Shown: piece after piece, positions 1 through 39,929 of the stretch
Layout: each line of letters opens with the position of its first letter
How positions within the stretch are numbered: the stretch's first letter is position 1
NCBI GenBank assembly: GCA_019683695.1
Contig: JADGHX010000024.1
Coordinates: forward strand, 1-39,929
DNA from: Steroidobacteraceae bacterium
GTDB lineage: Bacteria; Pseudomonadota; Gammaproteobacteria; Steroidobacterales; Steroidobacteraceae
DNA: 39,929 nt
Direction: 5' to 3'
Notes under the pieces: model-generated
Seen by the model: the letters and a program-made list of their open reading frames with translations, nothing else
Databases searched by the model: none
Told to the model about the DNA's origin: nothing
Translations under genes and position numbers: made by a program

Positions 1-47
1 CTCAATAAGCGCTCACCGCGCGCTATTTCCGCGGAATGCTCACTCAT
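1..47 (-). CDS. start of a further operon gene, cut by the left edge (possible methyltransferase)
   Basis: Reading leftwards from an ATG at 47-45, an open frame of 15 codons runs to the window edge (MSEHSAEIARGERLLS-like). It begins 47 bases after the stop of the CgeB-like glycosyltransferase on the same strand, so it would be the next gene of the polysaccharide operon. An AGGG lies about 12 bases upstream. The start loosely resembles the N-termini of class I methyltransferases found in O-antigen clusters, in which a GER motif precedes the first helix, but 15 residues cannot settle the family. The call rests mainly on operon position and an open frame. Confidence 0.35.
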   Translation of the reverse strand, partial: MSEHSAEIARGERLL

Positions 48-94
48 GCCCAACTTGCCCTGGATGTACGGATGCTGCACGCGCGCCTGAACAC

Positions 95-1222
95 TCACGC
101 AGGCGCCCGGAGTGCGCCTGCGCTGGCGCTGTTCTTCGGTATACATGCGGCCCAATCTAGGAGTCGGCGCAGATTGGTTTCCCAGTTGTAGTCTTTCCAG
201 AAGCGATCGAAGCCTGCGGCGGCGATCTGTAATCGTTCTTCATCGTGCTGCAGATAGTATTCCACGAGCTCAATCGCCTCCTCGATGGAGTCGTAGTAAA
301 CAGCTTCGCTGCCCGGCCGGAAGATGCGCTCGTGTGCGTTGCCTCCCGCCTTGTCGCAAACAAGCATCATGCCATGCGCCGGCACCTCGTACATCCGCGC
401 GTTCCCGGTTTCGGTGGGACTTTCTGAAACGTGCATGTTGAAGCCGATCTTCGTGCGCCAGTACAGGCGTGTCCGCTCGTCTGTCGAAAGCCTGGTGACC
501 CGGTACGGATAGATAGGCTTGCCGAGCAGGCCGCGGGCGAATCCCATGTACCCCCGTAAGGGCCAACGGCCGTGAATGCGAATGCGGTCGCCGAAATGCT
601 GCTTCAGGCGGATGAGCCTCTCGACTTTCGAACCTGTGGGATTGCCGACGTATACGATGTCGACGTCGCGGTTCCGAAGAAACGCTTCGCGCGGTTGCTC
701 CGATCGGGGCAGGTCCGCGTAGACGAGAGGGAACCAAGTCACCGGCCCCCGCGTCCAGCGCCGCAGGGATTCCTCGAACGTACGGTCATCGATGTAGCTC
801 GGTGAAATGTAGAAAGCGCCATCGAAGGCCCACAGATACGGAATCCCGCGCACGTAAGTCGACATCGGATCGTCGACGAAACCCATGATCTTGACCGGCT
901 TGCTCAGATCCCGATGCAACACCTCCGGGTGCACGAAGTTGTAGGTCGCCATGATGATCAGGTCGAAATCGTGAAAGCGCTCCACGAATTCGCGGATCAT
1001 GCGCATGTAGTGCGGATTGCGCTCGCGATAGAGCCGATCGACACCTGCAGCGCCGTGCAGAATCGCCCTGCGGTGATTGAAACCGTTCAACCCGCCCGTG
1101 ATGAGGTCCGCCAGCGACCAAGCCGCCCGTTTCGGGATGTACTCGAAGGGATCGAAGGTCTCCAGCCGGTAACCATGGAAATCGGCCATCGGTGGGAAGT
1201 TGAACAGGCACACGTTCTTCAT
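95..1222 (-). CDS. CgeB-like glycosyltransferase
   Basis: A 375-residue protein that probably adds a sugar to the growing lipid-linked repeat unit on the cytoplasmic side of the membrane. The C-terminal half carries the CgeB / glycosyl transferases group 1 pattern: FNMHVSESPTETGNARMYEV, followed by a hydrophobic strand and a conserved Glu/Asp-rich helix (EEAIELVEYYLQHDEE). There is no signal peptide or membrane segment. The longest frame begins 50 codons earlier, inside the flippase gene. I chose the ATG at 1222 because it forms an ATGA overlap with the flippase stop and gives the usual N-terminus (MKNVCLFNF). It is the only clear sugar transferase in this operon within the window. Donor and acceptor cannot be read from the sequence. 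Confidence 0.85.
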   Translation of the reverse strand: MKNVCLFNFPPMADFHGYRLETFDPFEYIPKRAAWSLADLITGGLNGFNHRRAILHGAAGVDRLYRERNPHYMRMIREFVERFHDFDLIIMATYNFVHPEVLHRDLSKPVKIMGFVDDPMSTYVRGIPYLWAFDGAFYISPSYIDDRTFEESLRRWTRGPVTWFPLVYADLPRSEQPREAFLRNRDVDIVYVGNPTGSKVERLIRLKQHFGDRIRIHGRWPLRGYMGFARGLLGKPIYPYRVTRLSTDERTRLYWRTKIGFNMHVSESPTETGNARMYEVPAHGMMLVCDKAGGNAHERIFRPGSEAVYYDSIEEAIELVEYYLQHDEERLQIAAAGFDRFWKDYNWETNLRRLLDWAACIPKNSASAGALRAPA

Positions 1223-2562
1223 CGGAGGAAGCGTTTCAGTGCACGTCGTGCCGAAGTAAAGGATAGCGCCGCGAGCACCGCATAGCCGAATGCGGCAGCC
1301 AGTGCGATCCCGAATGCGTCGAAGCGCACGCCTAGGATATAGGCAAGCGCAATCTGGAATGCGAGGACGCATACCGTATAGACACTCACGAGACCATTAC
1401 GCCCGAGTGCGGAGAGCGTTCGCGCACCGAGCATCGCGACCAGCGCGAAAGGAATCTGCGCGAAATACGCCACCTGGACCGGAGCGACGCGCAGTACGGA
1501 GTCGTAATCGAAGGCGCCGCGTTGGTAGAGCGCCGCCACGATCTCTTCGGAGAACCACCCACACGGCAGCGCCAGCGCGATCCCAACGAGCAGGGCTCCA
1601 TATGCGATCCGGTTGAGACTGTGCAAACAATACTCGAACCGCTGCTGCGCAATCTGCTCAGCGAAATAAGGCAAGGCGATTATTCCCATCGCAGTGACGG
1701 ACAGGCTCATTAGCGCCGACGGCAGTTTATATCCGTAACCGAGCGTGGCATTCGTACCGACTCCGAGTGATGCGGCAATAGCCTGCTCGGCTGCCGGACC
1801 GACCGCCGTCATGAACGTGCCAGGGATCAATGCCAAGCCGTGACGTACGACCGCGCCGAATGCCGGGAAATTGTATATTCGTGGACGCGCAATGTGGCCT
1901 GCACGGTACAACGCGACCAGCAGCATCAATGTTTCGGTGGCGGTTCCCGCTACGAGCGCGACGACCAGGGGTCGCCAGCCGCCCCCCGCGCCTGCGAGAA
2001 CCACGACGAGTATCGTGATCACCGGAGTGGCAAGCGGCAGCATGCCACTCGCGAAATAACGCCTGTTCGCCTGAAGAGCGCTGTACCCGAGCAGGTTCAC
2101 GGCGTTCAGGAAGTAATACGGAATGAGCCAGTACAGCGCGAAAAGCAACTCCGCCTGCTTTGCGGCCGCGAATCCGGACACGAGCAGCGGAAACAACCAG
2201 GGAAGCACGAGCAGCCATATGGGCAGCAGCACCAACAGGCAAGCAGAAGTAACCAGAATGGTTGTCGTCAGGAGCTGCCCAACGTCCCTGAACGTCTCGG
2301 TCCTGCCCGCGATGACCGATACCAGCGCCGTCTGCACGGCATTCAGCAGGATGCTGAGGGGGAAGCCTATCAGCACCACAGCTACAAGGTAGATGTCCAC
2401 CGCATCGGACAGGCCGAAGTGGGCCGCAATCGCGACCTCCTTGAGAAATCCGAGAAAGCGGGCAGCCAGCGACGTCGACGACACCACCAGTGCATCGTGC
2501 CCGAGACGACGCAGGGGCGAGCCGCCGACAAACGCTTTCCACCTGGACGACAGTGCCCTCAC
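1219..2562 (-). CDS. MurJ/Wzx-type polysaccharide flippase
   Basis: A polytopic inner-membrane protein (447 residues from this start, about 12-14 hydrophobic segments) that would flip the undecaprenyl-linked oligosaccharide to the periplasm. The N-terminal pattern, ARFLGFLKEVAIAAHFGLSD then AVDIYLVA, is that of the MVF/MurJ branch of the MOP superfamily rather than the classical Wzx branch. The longest frame starts at a GTG at 2607. I prefer the GTG at 2562 because it makes a four-base GTGA overlap with the methyltransferase stop, as seen elsewhere in this operon. Both starts have weak ribosome binding sites, so the choice is not certain. Its position beside a polymerase and chain-length gene argues for an exopolysaccharide flippase rather than the cell's essential lipid II flippase. 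Confidence 0.85.
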   Translation of the reverse strand: MRALSSRWKAFVGGSPLRRLGHDALVVSSTSLAARFLGFLKEVAIAAHFGLSDAVDIYLVAVVLIGFPLSILLNAVQTALVSVIAGRTETFRDVGQLLTTTILVTSACLLVLLPIWLLVLPWLFPLLVSGFAAAKQAELLFALYWLIPYYFLNAVNLLGYSALQANRRYFASGMLPLATPVITILVVVLAGAGGGWRPLVVALVAGTATETLMLLVALYRAGHIARPRIYNFPAFGAVVRHGLALIPGTFMTAVGPAAEQAIAASLGVGTNATLGYGYKLPSALMSLSVTAMGIIALPYFAEQIAQQRFEYCLHSLNRIAYGALLVGIALALPCGWFSEEIVAALYQRGAFDYDSVLRVAPVQVAYFAQIPFALVAMLGARTLSALGRNGLVSVYTVCVLAFQIALAYILGVRFDAFGIALAAAFGYAVLAALSFTSARRALKRFLR

Positions 2563-3125
2563 TTGCGCGGCGGAGTGGGCTCCCGCGCAGGTGCGGGCTT
2601 GTCGCACTCCACGTTCAGGCTGATCAGGAAACCGTTCTCCTTGTCCATGTGGGGAATGTATGCCTGCGAGAAATCGTCCACGTTCGCATGCTCGGTCTGC
2701 CGCCAGTCGTAACGACGAACGTTCACGAAGCCCACCCGCTCGAGCGTCGCCGACAGCGATGCGAAATCGAAGGTGTTGTAGTGGATATTGTATTCATAGT
2801 CCTGCCGGCCGTACAAGGGACCGATGATCAACTGAAGCTGTCCGTGCGTCGCATAGAGCCGGCAGAGTGCTTCGAAGTCCGGTACCGCAACCCGTAACGG
2901 GCCTCCGGGAGCCAGTACGCGCCACCACTCGCCCAGAACACGCTCGACGTCCTGGCGCTTGAAGTGCTCAAGGAGGTGACAGGCGTAAATAAGCTCGACG
3001 CTGCCGTCCCGAATGAAGGACAGATCCTCGGCCGAGGCAACGTGATCCACGTGCGGATGCGCGACCGCATCGACGTGCACGAATCCGGGAATGAATCGGG
3101 ATCCGCATCCCAAATGCAGCTTCAT
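2559..3125 (-). CDS. small class I SAM-dependent methyltransferase
   Basis: A 188-residue methyltransferase of the Methyltransf_11 type. Visible motifs are the SAM-binding LHLGCGSRFIPGFVHVDA at residues 3-20, the acidic strand-2 end, ELIYACHLLEHF (motif IV region), and WWRVLAPGGPLRVAVPDFEA (motif V/VI). The protein is short for the family and lacks a long C-terminal substrate domain, as is common for methyltransferases in O-antigen and capsule clusters. Its ATG directly follows the TAG of the GDP-fucose synthase gene with no spacing, and its TGA overlaps the flippase GTG. It probably O-methylates a sugar of the polymer or a precursor; this role is inferred from the operon only. Confidence 0.82.
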   Translation of the reverse strand: MKLHLGCGSRFIPGFVHVDAVAHPHVDHVASAEDLSFIRDGSVELIYACHLLEHFKRQDVERVLGEWWRVLAPGGPLRVAVPDFEALCRLYATHGQLQLIIGPLYGRQDYEYNIHYNTFDFASLSATLERVGFVNVRRYDWRQTEHANVDDFSQAYIPHMDKENGFLISLNVECDKPAPAREPTPPRK

Positions 3126-4112
3126 CTATCGCCCCATGAACGAACGGTACGTATCGCGTAGCCCCGCCTCGAGGGAGATCGAGGGCTTCCATCCGAGCGC
3201 CCGAATGCGGCGGATGTCGAGCACCTTGCGGGGGGTGCCGTCCGGCTTGGACGGATCGAACTCGATGCCGCCACTGAACCCGACGACCGCGCGGATCTTC
3301 TCCGCAAGCTCGCTGATCGGCAGATCTTCTCCTGAACCGATATTGACCAGAGGGGGCATGAAGATCCCGGTCCTCGCTTCGTCGCGACCGAGCAGCGGCT
3401 CGAACTGATCATCGGGAAGCGCGAGAAGAAATGCACAAGCATCCGCCACGTCGTCAACGTGCAGAAACTCCCGCCGGGGCGTGCCCGTTCCCCAGACCGT
3501 GACGCTGGTATCGCCACGTTCCCTGGCCTCGTGAAACTTGCGAATGAGCCCGGGAATGACGTGCGAGTTCTGCGGATGAAAGTTGTCGCCAGGCCCATAC
3601 AGATTGCATGGCATGACGGCCAGAAACCGCGTTCCATACTGACGATTGTAGCTCCAGCACATTTCGATGCCGGCGATCTTCGCGATCGCATACGCGCGGT
3701 TAGTGCGCTCCAGCGGCCCGGTGAGCAGGTACTCCTCCCGGATCGGCTGCGGCGACATGCGTGGATAGATGCAGGACGAACCGAGAAACAGCAAGCGCTT
3801 CACACCGTGCATCCAGGCGGCATGAATCACGTTCGTCTGAATCGCGAGATTCTGCTGGATGAACTCCGCCGGGTAGGTGTCATTGGCCAGAATCCCTCCG
3901 ACCTTCGCAGCCGCCAGAACGACGTATTCAGGCTTCTCGGCTGCGAAGAATGCCTCGACGGCATGGCAGTCCGTGAGATCCAGCTCCGTGCGCGTACGGG
4001 TGATCACCGTCGCCGGCACCGCCGCCTTGTCGGCGGCAGTCAAGCGCCTGACGATCGCGGATCCGACGAGTCCGCGATGTCCGGCTACAAAGACCCGACC
4101 GTCGAGACTCAC
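3126..4112 (-). CDS. fcl: GDP-L-fucose synthase (3,5-epimerase/4-reductase)
   Basis: Converts GDP-4-keto-6-deoxymannose to GDP-L-fucose with NADPH. It is a 328-residue extended short-chain dehydrogenase. The nucleotide-binding motif is AGHRGLVGSA (Gly11, Gly14, Gly17). The catalytic set is in place: the LGSSCIYP segment (Ser112/113 and Cys114) and YAIAKIAGIE with Tyr141 and Lys145, followed by the family-specific NLYGPGDNFHPQNSHVIPGL. Length and motifs match the WcaG/Fcl family. It lies six bases downstream of gmd, which supplies its substrate, so the two form a complete GDP-fucose module. Confidence 0.96.
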   Translation of the reverse strand: MSLDGRVFVAGHRGLVGSAIVRRLTAADKAAVPATVITRTRTELDLTDCHAVEAFFAAEKPEYVVLAAAKVGGILANDTYPAEFIQQNLAIQTNVIHAAWMHGVKRLLFLGSSCIYPRMSPQPIREEYLLTGPLERTNRAYAIAKIAGIEMCWSYNRQYGTRFLAVMPCNLYGPGDNFHPQNSHVIPGLIRKFHEARERGDTSVTVWGTGTPRREFLHVDDVADACAFLLALPDDQFEPLLGRDEARTGIFMPPLVNIGSGEDLPISELAEKIRAVVGFSGGIEFDPSKPDGTPRKVLDIRRIRALGWKPSISLEAGLRDTYRSFMGR

Positions 4113-4118
4113 GACAGG

Positions 4119-5204
4119 TTACCCGCGCTGCTCATATGGAGAATACCCGTGCCTCTTCACGAGCTCATCCCTCTGTGCCGATTTGAGATCTTCCGAGACC
4201 ATCTCGGCCACCAGCTCGCGAAAACTGGTCCTGGGTTTCCAGCCGAGCTTCATCCGGGCCTTGCTGGCGTCTCCAAGCAGGCTGTCCACCTCAGCCGGCC
4301 GGAAGTAGCGTGGGTCCACCTTTACTACGCAGCGCCCGCGCGCGTCGCAGGCCTTCTCTTCTATGCCGTGACCGCTCCAGCTGAGCTGCATGTCAAGCTC
4401 GGCCGCCACTGCATTCACGAAATCGCGCACGCTGTACTGCACGCCCGTTGCGATGACGAAGTCGTCAGGTTCCGCCTGCTGCAACATCATCCACTGCATC
4501 TCGACGTAGTCTCGGGCGTGCCCCCAGTCCCGCTTCGCATCCAGGTTGCCGAGGAACAGGCAGTCCTGAAGACCGAGCTTCACGCGCGCCAGCCCGCGGG
4601 TGATCTTACGCGTAACGAACGTCTCACCACGAATCGGGGATTCGTGATTGAAGAGAATCCCGTTGCATGCGTACATTCCGTACGCTTCGCGGTAGTTGAC
4701 CGTGATCCAGAAGGCATACAGCTTTGCGCAGGCGTAGGGGCTACGCGGGTGGAATGGTGTCGACTCGCTCTGCGGTATCTGCTGTGTCTTGCCGAATAGT
4801 TCGCTGGTCGACGCTTGATAAAAGCGGGTTCGTCGCTCGAGACCGAGCATGCGGATCGCTTCGAGTATGCGTAGCGTACCGAGCGCATTCGCGTCGGCGC
4901 TGTACTCTGGCGTCTCAAACGATACCGCGACGTGACTCTGGGCCCCGAGGTTGTAGATCTCGTCCGGTTGCACCTGCTGGATGATCCGGATGAGACTCGA
5001 CGAGTCTGTGAGATCACCGTGGTGCAGGATCAGACGGCGATTCTCCACGTGAGGATCTTCGAGCAGGTGATCGATACGCCCTGTGTTGAAGAGCGACGTC
5101 CGGCGCTTCACACCGTGAACCTCATACCCCTTGCTGATGAGGAACTCCGCAAGATACGCCCCGTCCTGACCCGTTATGCCGGTAATGATTGCCTTTTTGC
5201 TCAT
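4119..5204 (-). CDS. gmd: GDP-mannose 4,6-dehydratase
   Basis: First committed step to GDP-L-fucose: GDP-mannose to GDP-4-keto-6-deoxymannose, NADP-dependent, cytoplasmic. The 361-residue protein starts with [14 protein letters not shown] (GxxGxxG at 9-15). The active site is visible as STSELFG (Thr133, Glu135) and YACAK (Tyr157, Lys161), one position off the well-known Escherichia coli numbering. HHGDLTDSS and [17 protein letters not shown] are diagnostic for GMD as opposed to other dehydratases. It begins three bases after the polymerase stop. GDP-mannose synthesis genes (manA, manB, manC) are not in the window. Confidence 0.97.
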
Positions 5205-5207
5205 CAG

Positions 5208-6539
5208 CTAAGCCTGTCGTTGTGGATTGTCTGTCGCCGGGCGCGATATGAAATAGATGACCGCACTGGCAAGAACCAGTGGCAATGCGGTGATGAACGT
5301 GTGATGCGGGTTGCCGTACATGACTCTCGAACAGAGATATGCGATCCACGCGGCACGCATCGTAAGCATTACAGGATCCCGGCAGGCCGGGAACCACGCC
5401 TCGAAACGTGCCACCAGCCAACCGAACCCGATCGCCGCGATCACGATACCCATCGGACCGGCGCTCCAGTAACCAAACGTGATCAGGTCCGCGGGCACCG
5501 GTCCCCTCACGAGGTCCGAGAGCTGCATGGAGACGGTCTCGGGCAACTCCAGTGCGAACAGCCGCTTTGGCATCAGGTACGCAAGCCCGATCGGCACATC
5601 GGAAAACCACCGATATGCATAAGGCTCGGTGCCTACGTCGCGCAATGTCAGCGCGAGGCTCTCGACAGGGTAGGCAAACTCGAGCCCGACGCGGATGCCG
5701 ATCTCGGCCGGTCCCTGCGATGCGTTCTCGAACTGCGTCGCGATCCGCTCCGTCCCTCGGAACAGGTCGAACATCCCGTGACCGAACACGGTGATCGTCC
5801 CGAAGATCAGCAGCCCGGCAACGCACATTGGGACGAGCAGCCGATGTGACGAACGCAGCAGGAAATACAACGGAAACAGCAAAAGGAACTGCACAGTCAT
5901 GAGCCGGCCCGCATTCACAACCAGCGCGAGCATGGAAACGGCGAGCGCGAACGCAAAGACCACGTACATCCACACCGAACGGCGACCGGCCTGTATCGCC
6001 GCAAAAAGCAGCACCGTGCCGCCAGTTGCCACGGGGGACAATGTTTTCAAGAATCCCAGCCTCGAATACACCGGCTCCGCAGATGCGCGGTACGCAAGGA
6101 TCGTCTCCAGCATGAACTGAATGCCGCCGATATCCCGTGCGTACAGGTAGAGGGACATGAGCCCAACGAGCGAGAAGGCGACACCTGCAAGCACCAGAAG
6201 GCCGGAATGGGTCGAGCGCTCGGGCGTTCCCTGATCAGACCGCCCCAGCCGATATCCGAGCAGTAGAAGAAAGTAGGCCGCAAGAGCGACCACAACGGCG
6301 TACGCGTAATAGCCACTCGTTGGCGCGAGGTGCGTGACGAAGGACCACTCGGACGGGATGGCACCGGCTTCGAATGCGAAAAACACGAGCAGCGGCGCCA
6401 CACCGAACAACAGCACGAATACGAAGGTCGTAGTGAAGAGAAAATCGACGAGACCCGCCTGCCTGGCCCGTACGAGTTCCACCACGAATGCGCTCAGAAT
6501 CAGGGCAGCGCTAGCAAGCACCAAAATGATCGAGCTCAT
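5208..6539 (-). CDS. Wzy-type oligosaccharide repeat-unit polymerase
   Basis: A 443-residue inner-membrane protein with about 10-12 hydrophobic segments and a long central periplasmic loop (roughly residues 240-330). This is the layout of O-antigen/EPS polymerases, whose sequence is otherwise poorly conserved. It would polymerise flipped repeat units in the periplasm. Evidence is topology plus position: the chain-length gene is immediately upstream, gmd starts three bases downstream, and the flippase lies in the same operon. The ATG at 6539 follows a 31-base gap after the Wzz-type gene, the largest gap between complete genes of this operon. A ligase-like (WaaL) role cannot be excluded from sequence alone. 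Confidence 0.75.
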   Translation of the reverse strand: MSSIILVLASAALILSAFVVELVRARQAGLVDFLFTTTFVFVLLFGVAPLLVFFAFEAGAIPSEWSFVTHLAPTSGYYAYAVVVALAAYFLLLLGYRLGRSDQGTPERSTHSGLLVLAGVAFSLVGLMSLYLYARDIGGIQFMLETILAYRASAEPVYSRLGFLKTLSPVATGGTVLLFAAIQAGRRSVWMYVVFAFALAVSMLALVVNAGRLMTVQFLLLFPLYFLLRSSHRLLVPMCVAGLLIFGTITVFGHGMFDLFRGTERIATQFENASQGPAEIGIRVGLEFAYPVESLALTLRDVGTEPYAYRWFSDVPIGLAYLMPKRLFALELPETVSMQLSDLVRGPVPADLITFGYWSAGPMGIVIAAIGFGWLVARFEAWFPACRDPVMLTMRAAWIAYLCSRVMYGNPHHTFITALPLVLASAVIYFISRPATDNPQRQA

Positions 6540-6570
6540 CGTGCGCAGAGGCAGACATGCGCTGCCCTCA

Positions 6571-7482
6571 TCATGAATGCTTGGCTTGTGCTACCACGTA
6601 AGCGACCGCCACACCCATCAGGGCGAGCACCCACAGCGCCGGCGTCATCACGTACCGAGGACGCACCGATTTGTCCGGTGCGACCGCCGGATCGACGACG
6701 CGCAACGCAAATTCAGGCTGCACGGTCGCCATCATCTCGCGCTTCATCTGCTCTTCGATCAGGCGCGCGAGTGCGACCCGCAGCTCTGCGACGTTCGCGG
6801 AGGCTGACTCCCGCTCGAGATACTCCATGGCGCGCCGCGCTTCGGCGAGCGCCTGCGCACGCGAAAACTCGTTGAAATCCGAGACCATCGCGTTCGCCAG
6901 GTCCGCAGCCCGCGCCGCCGTGGGCCAATCCAGCCGAATGCGCACGAGACCGGAAGGCTTGTCCAGCGACACGGACCGCATCGAAGCCAAGCGCGAGACA
7001 AGCTGCAGCTGGGTCGGCGCTCTCGGGCCGTCCGGCACCATCGGGAGCCACGCGAGAAAGTGCGGACGCCAGGTGCCCGAATCGCTATCCCATCGTTCCG
7101 GAAACAGCTCCTGAGCGAGCTTGTTCTTCGTAATGAACCGGTAGGAAAACTGGGTAGAGGTGAGCGTTGCGATCGTGCGCTCCGCTTCGTTGTTACCGGA
7201 AGCACCCGGGACGAGATCGAGCATTGCACCGATGCCCAGGCCTGCTCCGAGCTGGTCGAGTGCGCTATCACGCTGAATGACCGGTGCGACCAGGACCTCA
7301 GCGCGGTACGCGGTGTCCGTAAACAGAACGTTCGCGACGCCGATCAGCAGCCCGATCAACCCGCAGAGCAGAATGAGTCGCCATCGGCTGAGCAAGACCC
7401 GCAGCAGATCGCGTTGTGCGACGTATGCCGTCGGAGTCGATGTTGAGCCGCTAATCAGCGATTTGTCGTCGTGTGCGAACAT
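6571..7482 (-). CDS. Wzz-type chain-length determinant (polysaccharide co-polymerase)
   Basis: A 303-residue inner-membrane protein of the Wzz family that sets polymer length together with Wzy. It has a short cytoplasmic N-terminus, a first membrane helix at about 36-55 (ILLCGLIGLLIGVANVLF), a periplasmic region with helical, Arg/Glu-rich segments (about 190-250), and a second helix at about 275-298 preceded by the proline-containing VVDPAVAPDKSVRPR. No Walker motifs or Tyr-rich tail are present, so it is not a Wzc-type kinase fusion. Its ATG overlaps the stop of the SLBB exporter gene by one base (TGATG), which suggests translational coupling. It probably bridges the polymerase to the exporter in the envelope. 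Confidence 0.88.
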   Translation of the reverse strand: MFAHDDKSLISGSTSTPTAYVAQRDLLRVLLSRWRLILLCGLIGLLIGVANVLFTDTAYRAEVLVAPVIQRDSALDQLGAGLGIGAMLDLVPGASGNNEAERTIATLTSTQFSYRFITKNKLAQELFPERWDSDSGTWRPHFLAWLPMVPDGPRAPTQLQLVSRLASMRSVSLDKPSGLVRIRLDWPTAARAADLANAMVSDFNEFSRAQALAEARRAMEYLERESASANVAELRVALARLIEEQMKREMMATVQPEFALRVVDPAVAPDKSVRPRYVMTPALWVLALMGVAVAYVVAQAKHS

Positions 7483-10433
7483 CAGAACGAATTGACTGCG
7501 GCGGCCGCGATCGCAAGGTTATAGATAATGGACGTTACAGCCTGCCAGAACGGAAGTGCTGGCAGTTTCTCAGTATTCAACGGCACCACGACCGTATCGC
7601 CAGGCTTGATATCGACGCTGTCGCGCGAGAACCAGCGCCCACCCTGCCGCGTCACGACGGCACCGTTCGCTCGCACCACATAGATGCGCTCCGCATCCGC
7701 CCGCCGCGTCAGCCCACCGCTGAGGGCGATGTAGTCGTCGCGACCGAGCTCTGGCCTGTAGAGATGCGACGTGGTGGTCTGCACCTCGCCGATGACGGTC
7801 ACTTCCTGCTGGAACTTCGGAACGATGAGCCGATCGCCGTCGCGCAGCACGATGTCCGCACCTGAACCCGGTGGCGCGCGCAAGGCGCGGGGCAGATCGA
7901 TCACAAGACGCCCAACGGCCTGCGCACCTCTCAACTGCGTCAGCAGCGATTGGCCGACAGCGAGCGCGGTCCCTGCTTGCGCCTGATTAGCCGCCGCGCC
8001 CTGCAAGGCAAGCGTGATGAGATCGTTCTGCATGCGGGTCGCCAGCTCGTCGATTTGTCGTTGCTCGCGCCGCTTCAGCTCCTCGCGCGTGAACACGCTG
8101 CCTTCCGGGAAGGCGAAATCCGTAAGCCCGCCGGCGCGTTGAATCACGGATTTCAGCGTTTCGCCCTGCTTGATCGAATACCGACCGGGGAAGCGGACCT
8201 CGCCCAGAATCGTGACGTACTGCTGAGCGTCCCACTCCGGCACCTCCTTGATGCTCAGGCTATCGAACGGCTCGAGCGCGATGTCTGCCGCCGGGTCGCC
8301 TCTCAGGATGGCCGCCAGATCGATCTGAATCTGCTCGGTCCGGCGCGTATCGCCATTCACCACGCGGTAACGGGTCAGCTCCGCCTTGCCGCCATACGCG
8401 GCATCGGTGAGGTTGCCGCCGGCCCGAATCAGGTCGCTCACTCTCATGCCGGGCTCGAGCGGATACTCGCCAGGCACCCTCACCTGCCCGTCCACCGAGA
8501 CGATTTCCGTGGGCCTGTTGAAATTCGACTGCGTGCGAAGCTCGTTCATCAGCGGGCGAATGATGCGCTCGCGGCTCGTCTCGAGATCGAAGACGATGAT
8601 CCGGTCGCGCGGCATGAGCAGCACGTCCTGCTCCGAGCCGGGTGCATTCAGGGCCGCGCCGAGGTCGGCCGAAAGGACGGTGACCTGTCGATTCGGCGGC
8701 AGCTCGCGCCGGATCAGGAGGTAGTTGATATCGGCATTCGGCTTCAGCTCATCGACAGAACGAATCACGTCCGTGAGTCGCAGGCCTTCGCGATAGGCAT
8801 ACGTGGCGGGCGAGAACACGTGCCCCTGGACCACCACACCGGAATCGAGCGTCGGCTTCAGCCTGGAGATCTGCAGTACATCCCCATTACGCACGCTCTG
8901 CGCGGACGCCTCAGCCCCCGTCAGACTCACGCTGATGACAACACGCTGCTGGTTCTCGGTGATACGCGTGAGCGAGGCCTTGCTGATATCCGCTTCCGCG
9001 GTGAGGCCACCCGCGAGATCGACCACGTCCGCGATCGTGGAATTCTTCGTCACCTCGTAGATCGCAGGCCGTCGTACCTCGCCCTGAACGGTTATCGTCG
9101 GGCCTACGGGTGGAATGAACACGACATCGCCCGGCAGCAGCCGCGCATCGTCTGTCGTATCCCCGCGGATGAGCATGTCGTACAGATCGAAGTTCCGCAC
9201 GACCACGCCCTGCCGCTTGAGCTGAATGTTTCGCAATGAGCCGATGGGCTTCACGCCACCCGCGGCAAAGAGCGCGGAGGTGATGGTGCCCAGGCCGCTG
9301 ATGGTGTAGGAGCCCGGCCGCGTGGCCTCGCCCAGCACGAACACGCGAATGGCGCGCGTGTCGCCCATGGAAAGGCTGGCCCGTACCCCGATCATCTGCC
9401 GCTCGACACGCTCTTCGATCGTCTGCTTCACGGTCGTGAAGCGCTGGCCGGCGACGTTGATGGGACCGAGCTCGGGGAAGCTCACGACGCCATCCCGCCC
9501 GACAACGAGCCGCAGCGTGCGGTTCTGGTTGCCATAGAGCTGCACGTCGAACTCGTCGCCCGGACCCACGATGTAATCCGCCGGCACCGGCACGTTCGTC
9601 ACCGGCGCAAAGGTGGACGGCGCCCGCTCGAAGAGGTCGTACCCGAACGGCTTCAATGCCTCCGTCCCGATCTTCTTGAGCGGCAGGCGAATCAGATTCA
9701 CATCGAAGTCACGCAGCTCAGGGTCCGCCTGCAGGCGCACGGTGGCCTCGAACTCCGTGAGCCCGGCGAGGGGGATGCCCGGGAACCCCGGCAATTGCAG
9801 CACGCCCTCGCGCGTCAGCCGGTACGGATTGCGCGACAGAATAAGCTCGACGAGCTTCTGGCGCTGCTCCCGCTCTTCCTGCGTGAGCTCCGGCGGTCGC
9901 GACTGTGCAGGCGATGGGATAGCGCCACCGTTCTGTTGTGCGGGCACCGAGGTGCCACCCGGCGGAGTGCCCGGCGCGACAACTGACGTTCCGGCACCGG
10001 GGAGTACAACTCCGCCCTGCTGCGGCTGACCGCGAAGTGCGGAACCCGGCTGCGCCTGTTTGAGCTGGATTCGGATGATGACGGTGTCGTCACCCTTGAG
10101 AAGCGGCATTCCGTTCCGCGTTTCCTCCTCCTCGGCTTCACGTTCGCGCATGCGCTCCAGCGCCCGTCTGTCGCGTTCGGCTTCCTGCTCCGTGTCCGGC
10201 AAGCCGCGCTCGGCCCGGTCCCGCGGTGTCGAGCTGATGGTGCCGCCTCCGCCTGCTCCGGTGATCTGCCGGAGAATCTGTTCCCGCTGCTCCGGCGTGA
10301 GATTCCGCAGCAGCTCGAGTTGCTCAGCGGTCGGGGCCGGCACCTGTGCCGTCAAAGGCGACGAGTGAATGACGCCTGCCACCAGCAGTGCAGCAGCGGT
10401 AACTCTCAGAATCAGGGACCGGATCACTCGCAT
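7482..10433 (-). CDS. very large Wza-like polysaccharide export protein with many SLBB domains
   Basis: A 983-residue secreted protein, more than twice the length of Wza (about 380). A signal peptide (residues 1-30, ending near LTAQ) is followed by a Pro/Gln/Glu-rich linker to about 190. A Poly_export domain follows at roughly 270-350 (DYIVGPGDEFDVQLYGNQ). After it comes a run of SLBB/beta-grasp units, recognisable from repeated phrases such as VLGEATRPGSY, VQGEVRRPAIYEV, VQGHVFSPATYAY, VDGQVRVPGEYPL, LGEVRFPGRYSI and IGEVQTTTSHLY, so about six. The C-terminus is a hydrophobic helix ending in Phe, as in outer-membrane Wza-type pores. The longest frame opens with a TTG one codon earlier; the ATG at 10433 has AAGGA five bases upstream. 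First gene of the polysaccharide operon. Confidence 0.9.
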   Translation of the reverse strand: MRVIRSLILRVTAAALLVAGVIHSSPLTAQVPAPTAEQLELLRNLTPEQREQILRQITGAGGGGTISSTPRDRAERGLPDTEQEAERDRRALERMREREAEEEETRNGMPLLKGDDTVIIRIQLKQAQPGSALRGQPQQGGVVLPGAGTSVVAPGTPPGGTSVPAQQNGGAIPSPAQSRPPELTQEEREQRQKLVELILSRNPYRLTREGVLQLPGFPGIPLAGLTEFEATVRLQADPELRDFDVNLIRLPLKKIGTEALKPFGYDLFERAPSTFAPVTNVPVPADYIVGPGDEFDVQLYGNQNRTLRLVVGRDGVVSFPELGPINVAGQRFTTVKQTIEERVERQMIGVRASLSMGDTRAIRVFVLGEATRPGSYTISGLGTITSALFAAGGVKPIGSLRNIQLKRQGVVVRNFDLYDMLIRGDTTDDARLLPGDVVFIPPVGPTITVQGEVRRPAIYEVTKNSTIADVVDLAGGLTAEADISKASLTRITENQQRVVISVSLTGAEASAQSVRNGDVLQISRLKPTLDSGVVVQGHVFSPATYAYREGLRLTDVIRSVDELKPNADINYLLIRRELPPNRQVTVLSADLGAALNAPGSEQDVLLMPRDRIIVFDLETSRERIIRPLMNELRTQSNFNRPTEIVSVDGQVRVPGEYPLEPGMRVSDLIRAGGNLTDAAYGGKAELTRYRVVNGDTRRTEQIQIDLAAILRGDPAADIALEPFDSLSIKEVPEWDAQQYVTILGEVRFPGRYSIKQGETLKSVIQRAGGLTDFAFPEGSVFTREELKRREQRQIDELATRMQNDLITLALQGAAANQAQAGTALAVGQSLLTQLRGAQAVGRLVIDLPRALRAPPGSGADIVLRDGDRLIVPKFQQEVTVIGEVQTTTSHLYRPELGRDDYIALSGGLTRRADAERIYVVRANGAVVTRQGGRWFSRDSVDIKPGDTVVVPLNTEKLPALPFWQAVTSIIYNLAIAAAAVNSF

Positions 10434-38569: not shown

Positions 38570-39185
38570 GGATCTCTCCTGATTCATCCAACTGCTGCCG
38601 GCTGCACCGTGCCAACGGCTTCGTCGCGCGTCGCGATACTGCAGCCGCCGCGTCTCATCGCATCCGCTCCGCCCACGCCACCGCTACCGCAATTCTTGCC
38701 CGCAACGTCTTGTCCGATGAGCGCTCATTGAGCGCCGCCCGCATCGGCCGCGAGCGCTTCGGCAGAAGAATGGCTTTTCACACGGCATGTTCCGGAACCG
38801 CGCCGCGGCCCAACGATGCCTCAAGCCAAAACCGCGAGCGCCGCCAGAGCAAGCCAATCGCCGCACCGCTTCCGACAGCAGACACGCTCGACAGCAGTTG
38901 ATCACGGAGAAGCCGCGCCCGGCACCGAATCCGCGAAAACCGAACGCCCGCCGCCTCGCACTCGCCATGCCGAGCCCTGCGCGCTCACGCGCATCCATTC
39001 GGACGTCGCCATGAGCCCTCCGCTCCGACATCAGACCGGCAACCGAACGGCGACACCTGCCCATCAACGTGCGCCCCCGAAGGCGCACGCTACATCGGCA
39101 CATTCCGGTGCGAGCGCGGCGTTTTCGCCGTGGCCGCGCCTGCACACGCCTTGGCTGCGCACACAGCACCCAACCGCCAATCCGC
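38570..39185. other. gene-poor stretch with no recognised feature
   Basis: Several open frames cross this stretch on both strands, but all are Arg/Ser/Ala-rich, lack ribosome binding sites and resemble no family. From about 39100 to 39180 the text begins to resemble the tandem repeat that follows (for example GGTGCGAGCGCGGCGTTTT and CAACCGCCAA), so a decayed extra unit probably lies here. Confidence 0.45.
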
Positions 39186-39713
39186 GATTCCGTCGCGCGC
39201 TCAACTGATCGTCGCAGCGCGATCGGTAAAGCGCGAGCTGTCGCGAACGAACCTCGCGTTCCCGCGGAAATATCGTCCCCGCCTCGCCGCGCAAACGCTG
39301 CCGCGTTCGCCCCCTGCGAGCAGCTGCACGGCAACCGCCGGTCCGCAATTCGTTCGCGCACTCAACTCCACTTCGCATGAGCGTTCCCGCGGAAACATCA
39401 TCCCGGCGTCGCCGCGCAAATGCTGCCGCATTTGCCCACTGCGAGCAGCACGCTAACCGACAGATGACTCCAGCGCGCGTTCAACTCAGCACCGCATGCG
39501 CGACCGACAAGGCGCGAGATGGCGGCGGCGAATGCCGCGTTCCACCGGGAACTTCATCGCCGTGTGTGGTCGCAGCGCGCACGCTGCCGCGCTTTTCCGC
39601 TGCGCGCGGCGCGCTATCCGACGGCTGATTCCATCGCGCGCTCAACTCAGCGCTGCATGCACGACTGGCAAAGCGCGAGGTGGCAGGTGCGAATGCCGCG
39701 TTTCAGCGGAGAC
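39186..39713. repeat. imperfect tandem repeat, 161-base period, about 3.3 units
   Basis: Four copies of a GATTCC-(G/A)TCGCGCGCTCAAC-like anchor begin at 39186, 39347, 39466 and 39627, so the spacings are 161, 119 and 161 bases. The second unit lacks about 40 bases after the anchor. Shared inner blocks include AAAGCGCGAG (units 1 and 4, near-match in 3), GCGAATGCCGCGTTTC (3 and 4), GCGTTCCCGCGGAAA (1 and 2) and CACTGCGAGCAGC-like text (1 and 2). Units are diverged, at roughly 70-80 percent identity by eye. No reading frame is kept through the array. The fourth unit breaks off around 39713, just before the transposase gene. Confidence 0.8.
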
Positions 39714-39929
39714 TGTGTGAGAACGTGCTGTAATGCGGGAATGACACCATCGGGGTTGGGAGTACCGATGCGCCACGTTCAGGGGGAGAGCCGGCATCAG
39801 ATCGCGTTGTTGCCGGAGTCACTGGAGGATTTCGTCGCAGCAGATCACCCGGTGCGAGTGATCGATGCCTATATCGAGCGGCTGGACATGGGTGCCCTGG
39901 GGTTCGCCAAGGCGGTGCCCAAAGAGACC
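39714..39929 (+). mobile_element. left end of an IS1182-family insertion sequence, cut by the window edge
   Basis: The boundary is placed where the fourth tandem-repeat unit stops matching the third (about 39713), roughly 55 bases before the transposase ATG. The terminal inverted repeat cannot be confirmed because the right end is outside the window. The exact first base may differ by several positions. Confidence 0.55.
39768..39929 (+). CDS. IS1182-family transposase, N-terminal part
   Basis: The first 54 codons of a transposase that continues past the window. The translation starts MRHVQGESRHQIALLPESL and continues EDFVAADHPVRVIDAYIERL, then DMGALGFAKAVPKET. This is the N-terminal domain pattern of IS1182-type DDE transposases (LPESL-D-(Y/F)V, then HPVRVIDA and LGF). 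The ATG at 39768 has GGGAG five bases upstream; an in-frame ATG at 39741 is a weaker alternative. Whether the transposase is intact cannot be judged from this fragment. Confidence 0.85.
   Translation, partial: MRHVQGESRHQIALLPESLEDFVAADHPVRVIDAYIERLDMGALGFAKAVPKET

Follow-up and report, generated by a model that had tools for sequence, protein, structure and literature searches.

Free-standing HNH homing endonucleases are selfish HNH genes that spread by break repair, and the homing gene disrupts its own target site. REP palindromes with RAYT transposases represent another arrangement, in which the gene of a DNA-cutting protein is accompanied by palindromes and solo relics. Multicopy DUF222-HNH genes are known from the REP13E12 (13E12) loci of M. 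tuberculosis, which are scattered in the chromosome and prone to gene conversion (PMC10589994, PMC13061034), and these genes are among the most frequent gene-conversion loci of that species (PMC13061034). DUF222-HNH genes are multicopy in many bacteria, and the REP13E12 loci among them are described as being without a defined function. Here we analyse a stretch of 39,929 nt from a Steroidobacteraceae bacterium (the window; contig C175 of a 5.18-Mb genome in 312 contigs), which carries a repeat array related to such genes. The family to which it belongs resembles REP13E12 in its multicopy, dispersed and conversion-prone DUF222-HNH genes, and differs in having 5′ and 3′ arrays of partial copies together with a parS-like palindrome, which sampled actinobacterial genes have only sporadically. 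As in the REP/RAYT arrangement, the gene of a predicted DNA-cutting protein occurs with palindromes and solo relics, whereas the predicted chemistry is HNH rather than HUH/Y1 and the palindromes lie mostly in coding sequence. With homing endonucleases it would have in common a selfish HNH gene and the break-repair spread that we propose here, but intact sites persist inside the gene itself.

The array occupies 39186..39713, with the gene sense on the minus strand, and is a putative scar array from the 3′ end of a DUF222-HNH endonuclease gene, made up of four decayed units that each correspond to about the last 50 codons. The first-pass annotation had anchored a degenerate 161-base tandem repeat at 39186, 39347, 39466 and 39627, and these anchors are exact direct repeats with the spacings of 161, 119 and 161 that it gave. 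Direct comparison aligned the copies at 39408 and 39569 with 78% identity over 146 nt, and a second copy pair at 39256 and 39381 with 88% identity over 69 nt at an offset of 125, and the tandem-repeat search that had been recommended (TRF) did not report the array because the copies are too diverged. A unit profile derived from the genome's 11 other loci, with the window excluded, recovered four units at E-values from 1e-25 to 8e-11, and the best match in the reversed window used as control had an E-value of only 0.08. The outermost unit lies at 39193..39338 (minus strand, E 2e-18), followed by a unit at 39354..39463 (minus strand, E 8e-11) whose deletion of about 42 nt accounts for the spacing of 119 and which shares the local duplication of 125-nt offset with the preceding unit. 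The third lies at 39474..39617 (minus strand, E 1e-25), and within it 39484–39603 corresponds to residues 437–475 of the HNH protein at 72% identity; the unit closest to the lost or hidden gene lies at 39633..39713 (minus strand, E 2e-18). An upstream half-unit supposed to begin near 39100 found no backing, as the profile gives 39083–39128 at an E-value of 0.23.

Twelve such arrays are present in the genome, the window included, which bears out the suggestion that the repeat is the remains of a larger family. Nearly all are located at contig ends and point outward, because the adjoining multicopy gene breaks the assembly, and at all 11 other loci the array leads directly into a multicopy DUF222-HNH gene, at its 3′ end. 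The sole full-length gene copy (contig C26) encodes 475 aa with a DUF222 domain (PF02720, E 6.8e-29) and an HNH domain (PF01844, E 8.6e-6), and the assembly suggests that about a dozen or more copies are collapsed. Residues C321, C326, H335, H336, N350, C355, H358 and H359 of the HNH domain are invariant among 74 proteins, and in the protein model this domain aligns with the IscB and McrA nucleases. A PDB sequence search gave weak HNH matches only. The repeat unit is the antisense of the gene's ~50 final codons, and on inspection of the sequence the anchor CGCTCAACTCAGC includes the antisense stop codon of most gene copies; since 161 is not divisible by three, added copies cannot lengthen the frame. 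The window array is thus almost certainly the 3′ flank of one copy of the multicopy DUF222-HNH family, and its units are decayed copies of the gene end. The first-pass annotation had seen no reading frame, which holds for the units as they stand and fails for their origin as antisense coding copies, and it had stated that its reading would fall if the unit matched a known coding family out of frame; this is the case, the units being antisense, frame-broken DUF222-HNH 3′ ends. An old satellite or a structured RNA array with no relation to genes, as that annotation had considered, would agree with the fixed period and with the lack of an intact frame in the window, but all relatives in the genome adjoin a DUF222-HNH gene and overlap it, and an Rfam search of the window gave no match, so that this alternative is hardly credible; an origin unrelated to genes is already refuted by homology to the gene's 3′ end. 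A search of viral contigs for relatives found none and a plasmid search found only three records, and for these reasons the element does not look phage- or plasmid-borne. PADLOC made no defence-system assignment.

The IS1182 element into which the array had been said to run is real, with a transposase N-terminus and a terminal-repeat-like end. The left end of this IS1182-family element lies at 39711..39929 (plus strand) and runs off the contig, which stops 219 bases into the IS, so that whatever follows lies outside the assembly. The terminal-repeat-like sequence GACTGTGTGAGAAC, which was compared with GGCTGTGTGAAAAC, starts at 39711, and the N-terminal 54 residues of the transposase are encoded at 39768..39929 (plus strand) and share 57% identity with ISPpu20 across that length. 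This homology and the terminal repeat together place the element in the IS1182 family; the assembly contains its left end only. The insertion begins inside the last array unit, within a palindrome at GTTTCAGCGG|GAAC (profile position 81–82), and the left part of this broken palindrome, GTTTCAGCGG(GAAC), is found at 39700..39710 from sequence and unit profile.

The relationships among units bear on how the arrays arose. Comparison was possible for 45 units of sufficient length, and 44 of these are most similar to a unit from a different locus, in many cases one of equal rank; the exception is the window with its one local duplication. Truncated units beside a characteristic neighbour recur at several loci, and the farther a unit lies from the gene, the lower its identity to the gene-embedded unit (rho −0.66, p 8e-7). 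A second tandem array, with palindromes and a unit of ~430 nt, flanks the gene on its 5′ side. Because the closest relatives are at other loci, the arrays moved or were converted together with the gene; judged by unit kinship, a separate origin at each locus is rejected, and the arrays either predate dispersal or would be kept alike by conversion. Simple tandem duplication, or a satellite, would require that units resemble their neighbours in the same array, and this candidate was discarded on the same count. Tandem repeats can form without a nuclease, and the window has one local duplication. The arrays might be ordinary unequal-crossover duplications of the 3′ end in a dispersed family without function, whose palindrome is unrelated to any protein activity, but the kinship of units across loci speaks against this explanation, as do the DNA-level selection of palindromes within genes of many taxa and a predicted fold that points to a parS-binding type (both described below); we regard it as unlikely. 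Because the assembly breaks at these genes, neither an empty insertion site nor a duplication of the target could be defined. Clustering of breakpoints near the palindrome is not claimed, because the ends of local alignments are biased toward the conserved palindrome. At L104 (G000:C190), the last ~200 bases hold an HNH fragment (residues 85–126) that abuts the 5′ array directly, the start of the gene having been lost by internal deletion. On the G000 contigs C39, C56, C126, C130, C176, C195 and C278, the 5′ arrays that belong to additional HNH copies stop where the contigs do.

Palindromes of the type GTTTCAGCGGGAAC, intact or as relics, are borne by most array units, and in this genome they are present within the 5′ as well as the 3′ arrays. 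In the window, decayed palindromes read from the sequence lie at 39258..39271 (GTTCCCGCGGAAAT) and 39539..39552 (GTTCCACCGGGAAC), and the palindrome scan found GTTCCCGCGGAAAC at 39383..39396. The consensus is ACGTTTCCGCGGAAACGT, and the palindrome of the genes is written (A)CGTTNCNGCNGNAACG(T). Sites of the form GTTYCNGCNGRAAC number 43 in the genome, against 0 for the reversed pattern, and nearly all are at the DUF222-HNH element; among relatives, several gene-bearing genomes are enriched in the same pattern and most gene-less ones are near background. Nearly all of the related genes first inspected had their own version of the palindrome within the gene, and there are lineages with CGATTCC, GTTACC and GTCTCC sites. 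In a survey of 80 named loci, mainly from Gammaproteobacteria with a few from other phyla, perfect palindromes of at least 14 nt occurred at 0.80/kb in the gene and at 0.08–0.12/kb outside it, and were thus 7–10 times denser in the gene. Palindromes of at least 16 nt numbered 73 in 78 full DUF222-HNH genes, against 4.15 (maximum 11) after synonymous shuffling, and 199 neighbouring control genes had no palindrome excess (8 against 7.9 shuffled). Two reading frames are used for the palindrome: in linkers, in the core and in the tail it is translated as VSAET, and at the conserved W-x-G site close to the C-terminus as RFRGNV. Its symmetry is preserved by paired non-synonymous changes (VSAET, VTAVT, VPAGT and DSAES), and together these features argue that selection acts on the DNA. 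Moreover, sites within one gene are more alike than permuted ones (0.93 against 0.87, p<1/2000). A recognisable site is missing in 13 of the 80 genes. These comparisons show, at the level of sequence, that a parS-like palindrome at several coding positions is kept by selection on DNA itself in DUF222-HNH genes mainly of Gammaproteobacteria. We found no description in the open-access literature of a palindrome in the DUF222-HNH context, nor of the VSAETS peptide.

If the palindromes acted instead as mRNA hairpins, perfect copies could form stems with a 4-nt loop; on the sense strand, however, A.C is at least as frequent as G.U among imperfect pairs (the scan fixed the central GC by design), and this lack of preference for G.U indicates selection as DNA rather than as mRNA. 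Since copies are found in non-coding flanks too, a role as mRNA hairpins is very improbable, and the missing G.U bias in these related genes, like the empty Rfam search, leaves the proposal of a structured RNA array unsupported. The palindrome might also be an independent miniature element, comparable to REPs or to the palindromic elements of Rickettsia, with insertion into gene loops where it is tolerated. The sites of the C26 gene do fall in a low-confidence linker and the disordered tail, two reading frames are used, and intergenic occurrences exist in one genome. Against this, the sites are concentrated in one gene family, at 1.20/kb in the 80 genes compared with 0.016/kb far from them, and the 199 neighbouring genes are without excess, which makes an independent element distinctly unlikely, though less so than the hairpins.

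The protein model suggests what may recognise these sites. The binding site parS of ParB is TGTTTCACGTGAAACA (PMC7383237), and the consensus half-site CGTTTCCG has GTTTC in common with the parS half-site TGTTTCAC and TTTC in common with the Noc site TATTTCCC (PMC7383237), so that the palindrome has the GTTTC/GAAAC of parS. Five of eight positions agree between the two half-sites (P 0.027 for a random 8-mer), a likeness that is weak alone. AlphaFold2 models of the whole protein and of residues 1–193 alone (pLDDT 91) were compared with the PDB. With the DUF222 domain model, the top 14 VIA-align matches were all DNA-binding domains of ParB, Noc, Spo0J or KorB, at Z 8.8–5.3 against 4.4 for the next unrelated match, a Z near 8 being middling by the tool's own note; rmsd values of the ParB-type matches were mostly 2.2–2.8 Å, and Noc:NBS and Spo0J:parS complexes were among the matches. 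Foldseek with this domain alone ranked ParB or Noc at positions 1–8 with probabilities of 0.97–1.0, but E-values of ~0.1–0.3, and with the whole protein it did not rank ParB high, whereas a second comparison by VIA-align did. A profile–profile comparison of DUF222 with ParB gave no match (hhalign probability 2.9, with the alignment off the helix-turn-helix); the ParB link therefore rests on predicted structure and on the site. The link was first drawn ahead of the VIA-align result, on the basis of the motif, the site and a single Foldseek match of low rank, and the open-access literature held nothing that links DUF222 with ParB. In the full model the tail (residues 448–474) is disordered and a linker near residue 200 is of low confidence, and these are the places where the C26 palindromes are encoded. 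DUF222 is thus predicted to be a helix-turn-helix domain of the ParB/Noc/KorB type, and it probably binds the palindrome. The predicted fold and the 16-bp palindrome with GTTTC/GAAAC half-sites are as in ParB/parS, Noc/NBS and KorB/operator, whereas here the domain is fused to HNH, with no ParB CTPase domain detected by Pfam, the sites lie inside the protein's own gene, and the site centre is NGCN.

The main functional rival is autoregulation without cutting, in which the palindromes would be operators or roadblocks and the DUF222-HNH protein would bind its own gene to limit expression. The ParB/KorB-like domain is predicted and KorB (1r71, 8qa9) is a repressor, the gene that holds the sites encodes the protein itself, and some lineages have single copies upstream (at −74 in L251, and in G009 76 nt before the called start). 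Yet the 300 nt upstream of the 80 surveyed genes hold 0 sites, which counts against the simplest autoregulation only, the sites lie deep in the coding region, and the HNH residues are conserved; regulation of this sort is about as improbable as unequal crossover. In the mechanism that we favour, the N-terminal DUF222 domain would bind the palindrome and the HNH domain would cut or nick there. The breaks would then be repaired from other copies or from misaligned repeats, and by this repair gene copies may convert one another, the gene and its flanks may be carried to new places, and tandem partial copies may be left beside the gene, the window array being such a scar, now decaying. As a whole, the explanation that a ParB-fold HNH nuclease acts on its own gene and flanks and that the window array is its scar is moderately probable; self-targeted cutting as the driver of conversion and spread is, taken by itself, a tentative proposal that we hold at somewhat less than even. 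A nuclease that cuts its own intact gene would come at a cost, and would have to be kept in check or act as a nickase.

With similar reserve, DUF222-HNH proteins might form a ParB-fold class of self-targeting nucleases with their recognition palindromes inside their own coding sequence, so that each gene would be the substrate on which breaks drive its conversion, duplication and spread; this is a candidate explanation for REP13E12. The conversion hotspots at REP13E12 fit, by analogy, a model of break-driven conversion. Actinobacterial DUF222 genes have a weak palindrome excess (9 against 3.0, maximum 7), and for this reason we extend the palindrome model to REP13E12 as a hypothesis. A selfish element of this kind is not described in the open-access literature searched. 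A conserved in-gene DNA site together with a predicted parS-type domain yields a hypothesis on the protein's binding target that is specific and cheap to test, and that would address why DUF222-HNH genes convert, multiply and leave arrays.

Several further loci carry palindromes. At two actinobacterial DUF222 loci the palindrome lies just upstream of the gene, at −74 (L251) and −102 (L247), and the one in L251 matches its in-gene palindrome. In L217 (G046:C28, 2697–7136), five DUF222-HNH-type palindromes are spaced in ~1-kb steps among toxin–antitoxin-like nucleotidyltransferase and PIN genes; near them no DUF222-HNH gene was detected, and the palindrome may there mark the boundaries of inserted genes. 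In L218 (G046:C6), a gene of ~170 aa occurs three times, at 2410, 5279 and 9677, with ~83–95% DNA identity and with the palindrome CGTTTCTGCAGAAACG at one end of each copy. In L219 (Wenzhouxiangella sp. 15190, 1–7700), palindrome-bearing DUF222-HNH 3′ remnants alternate with other genes beside attC-like repeats, and this locus is possibly an integron-type cassette array with HNH relics.
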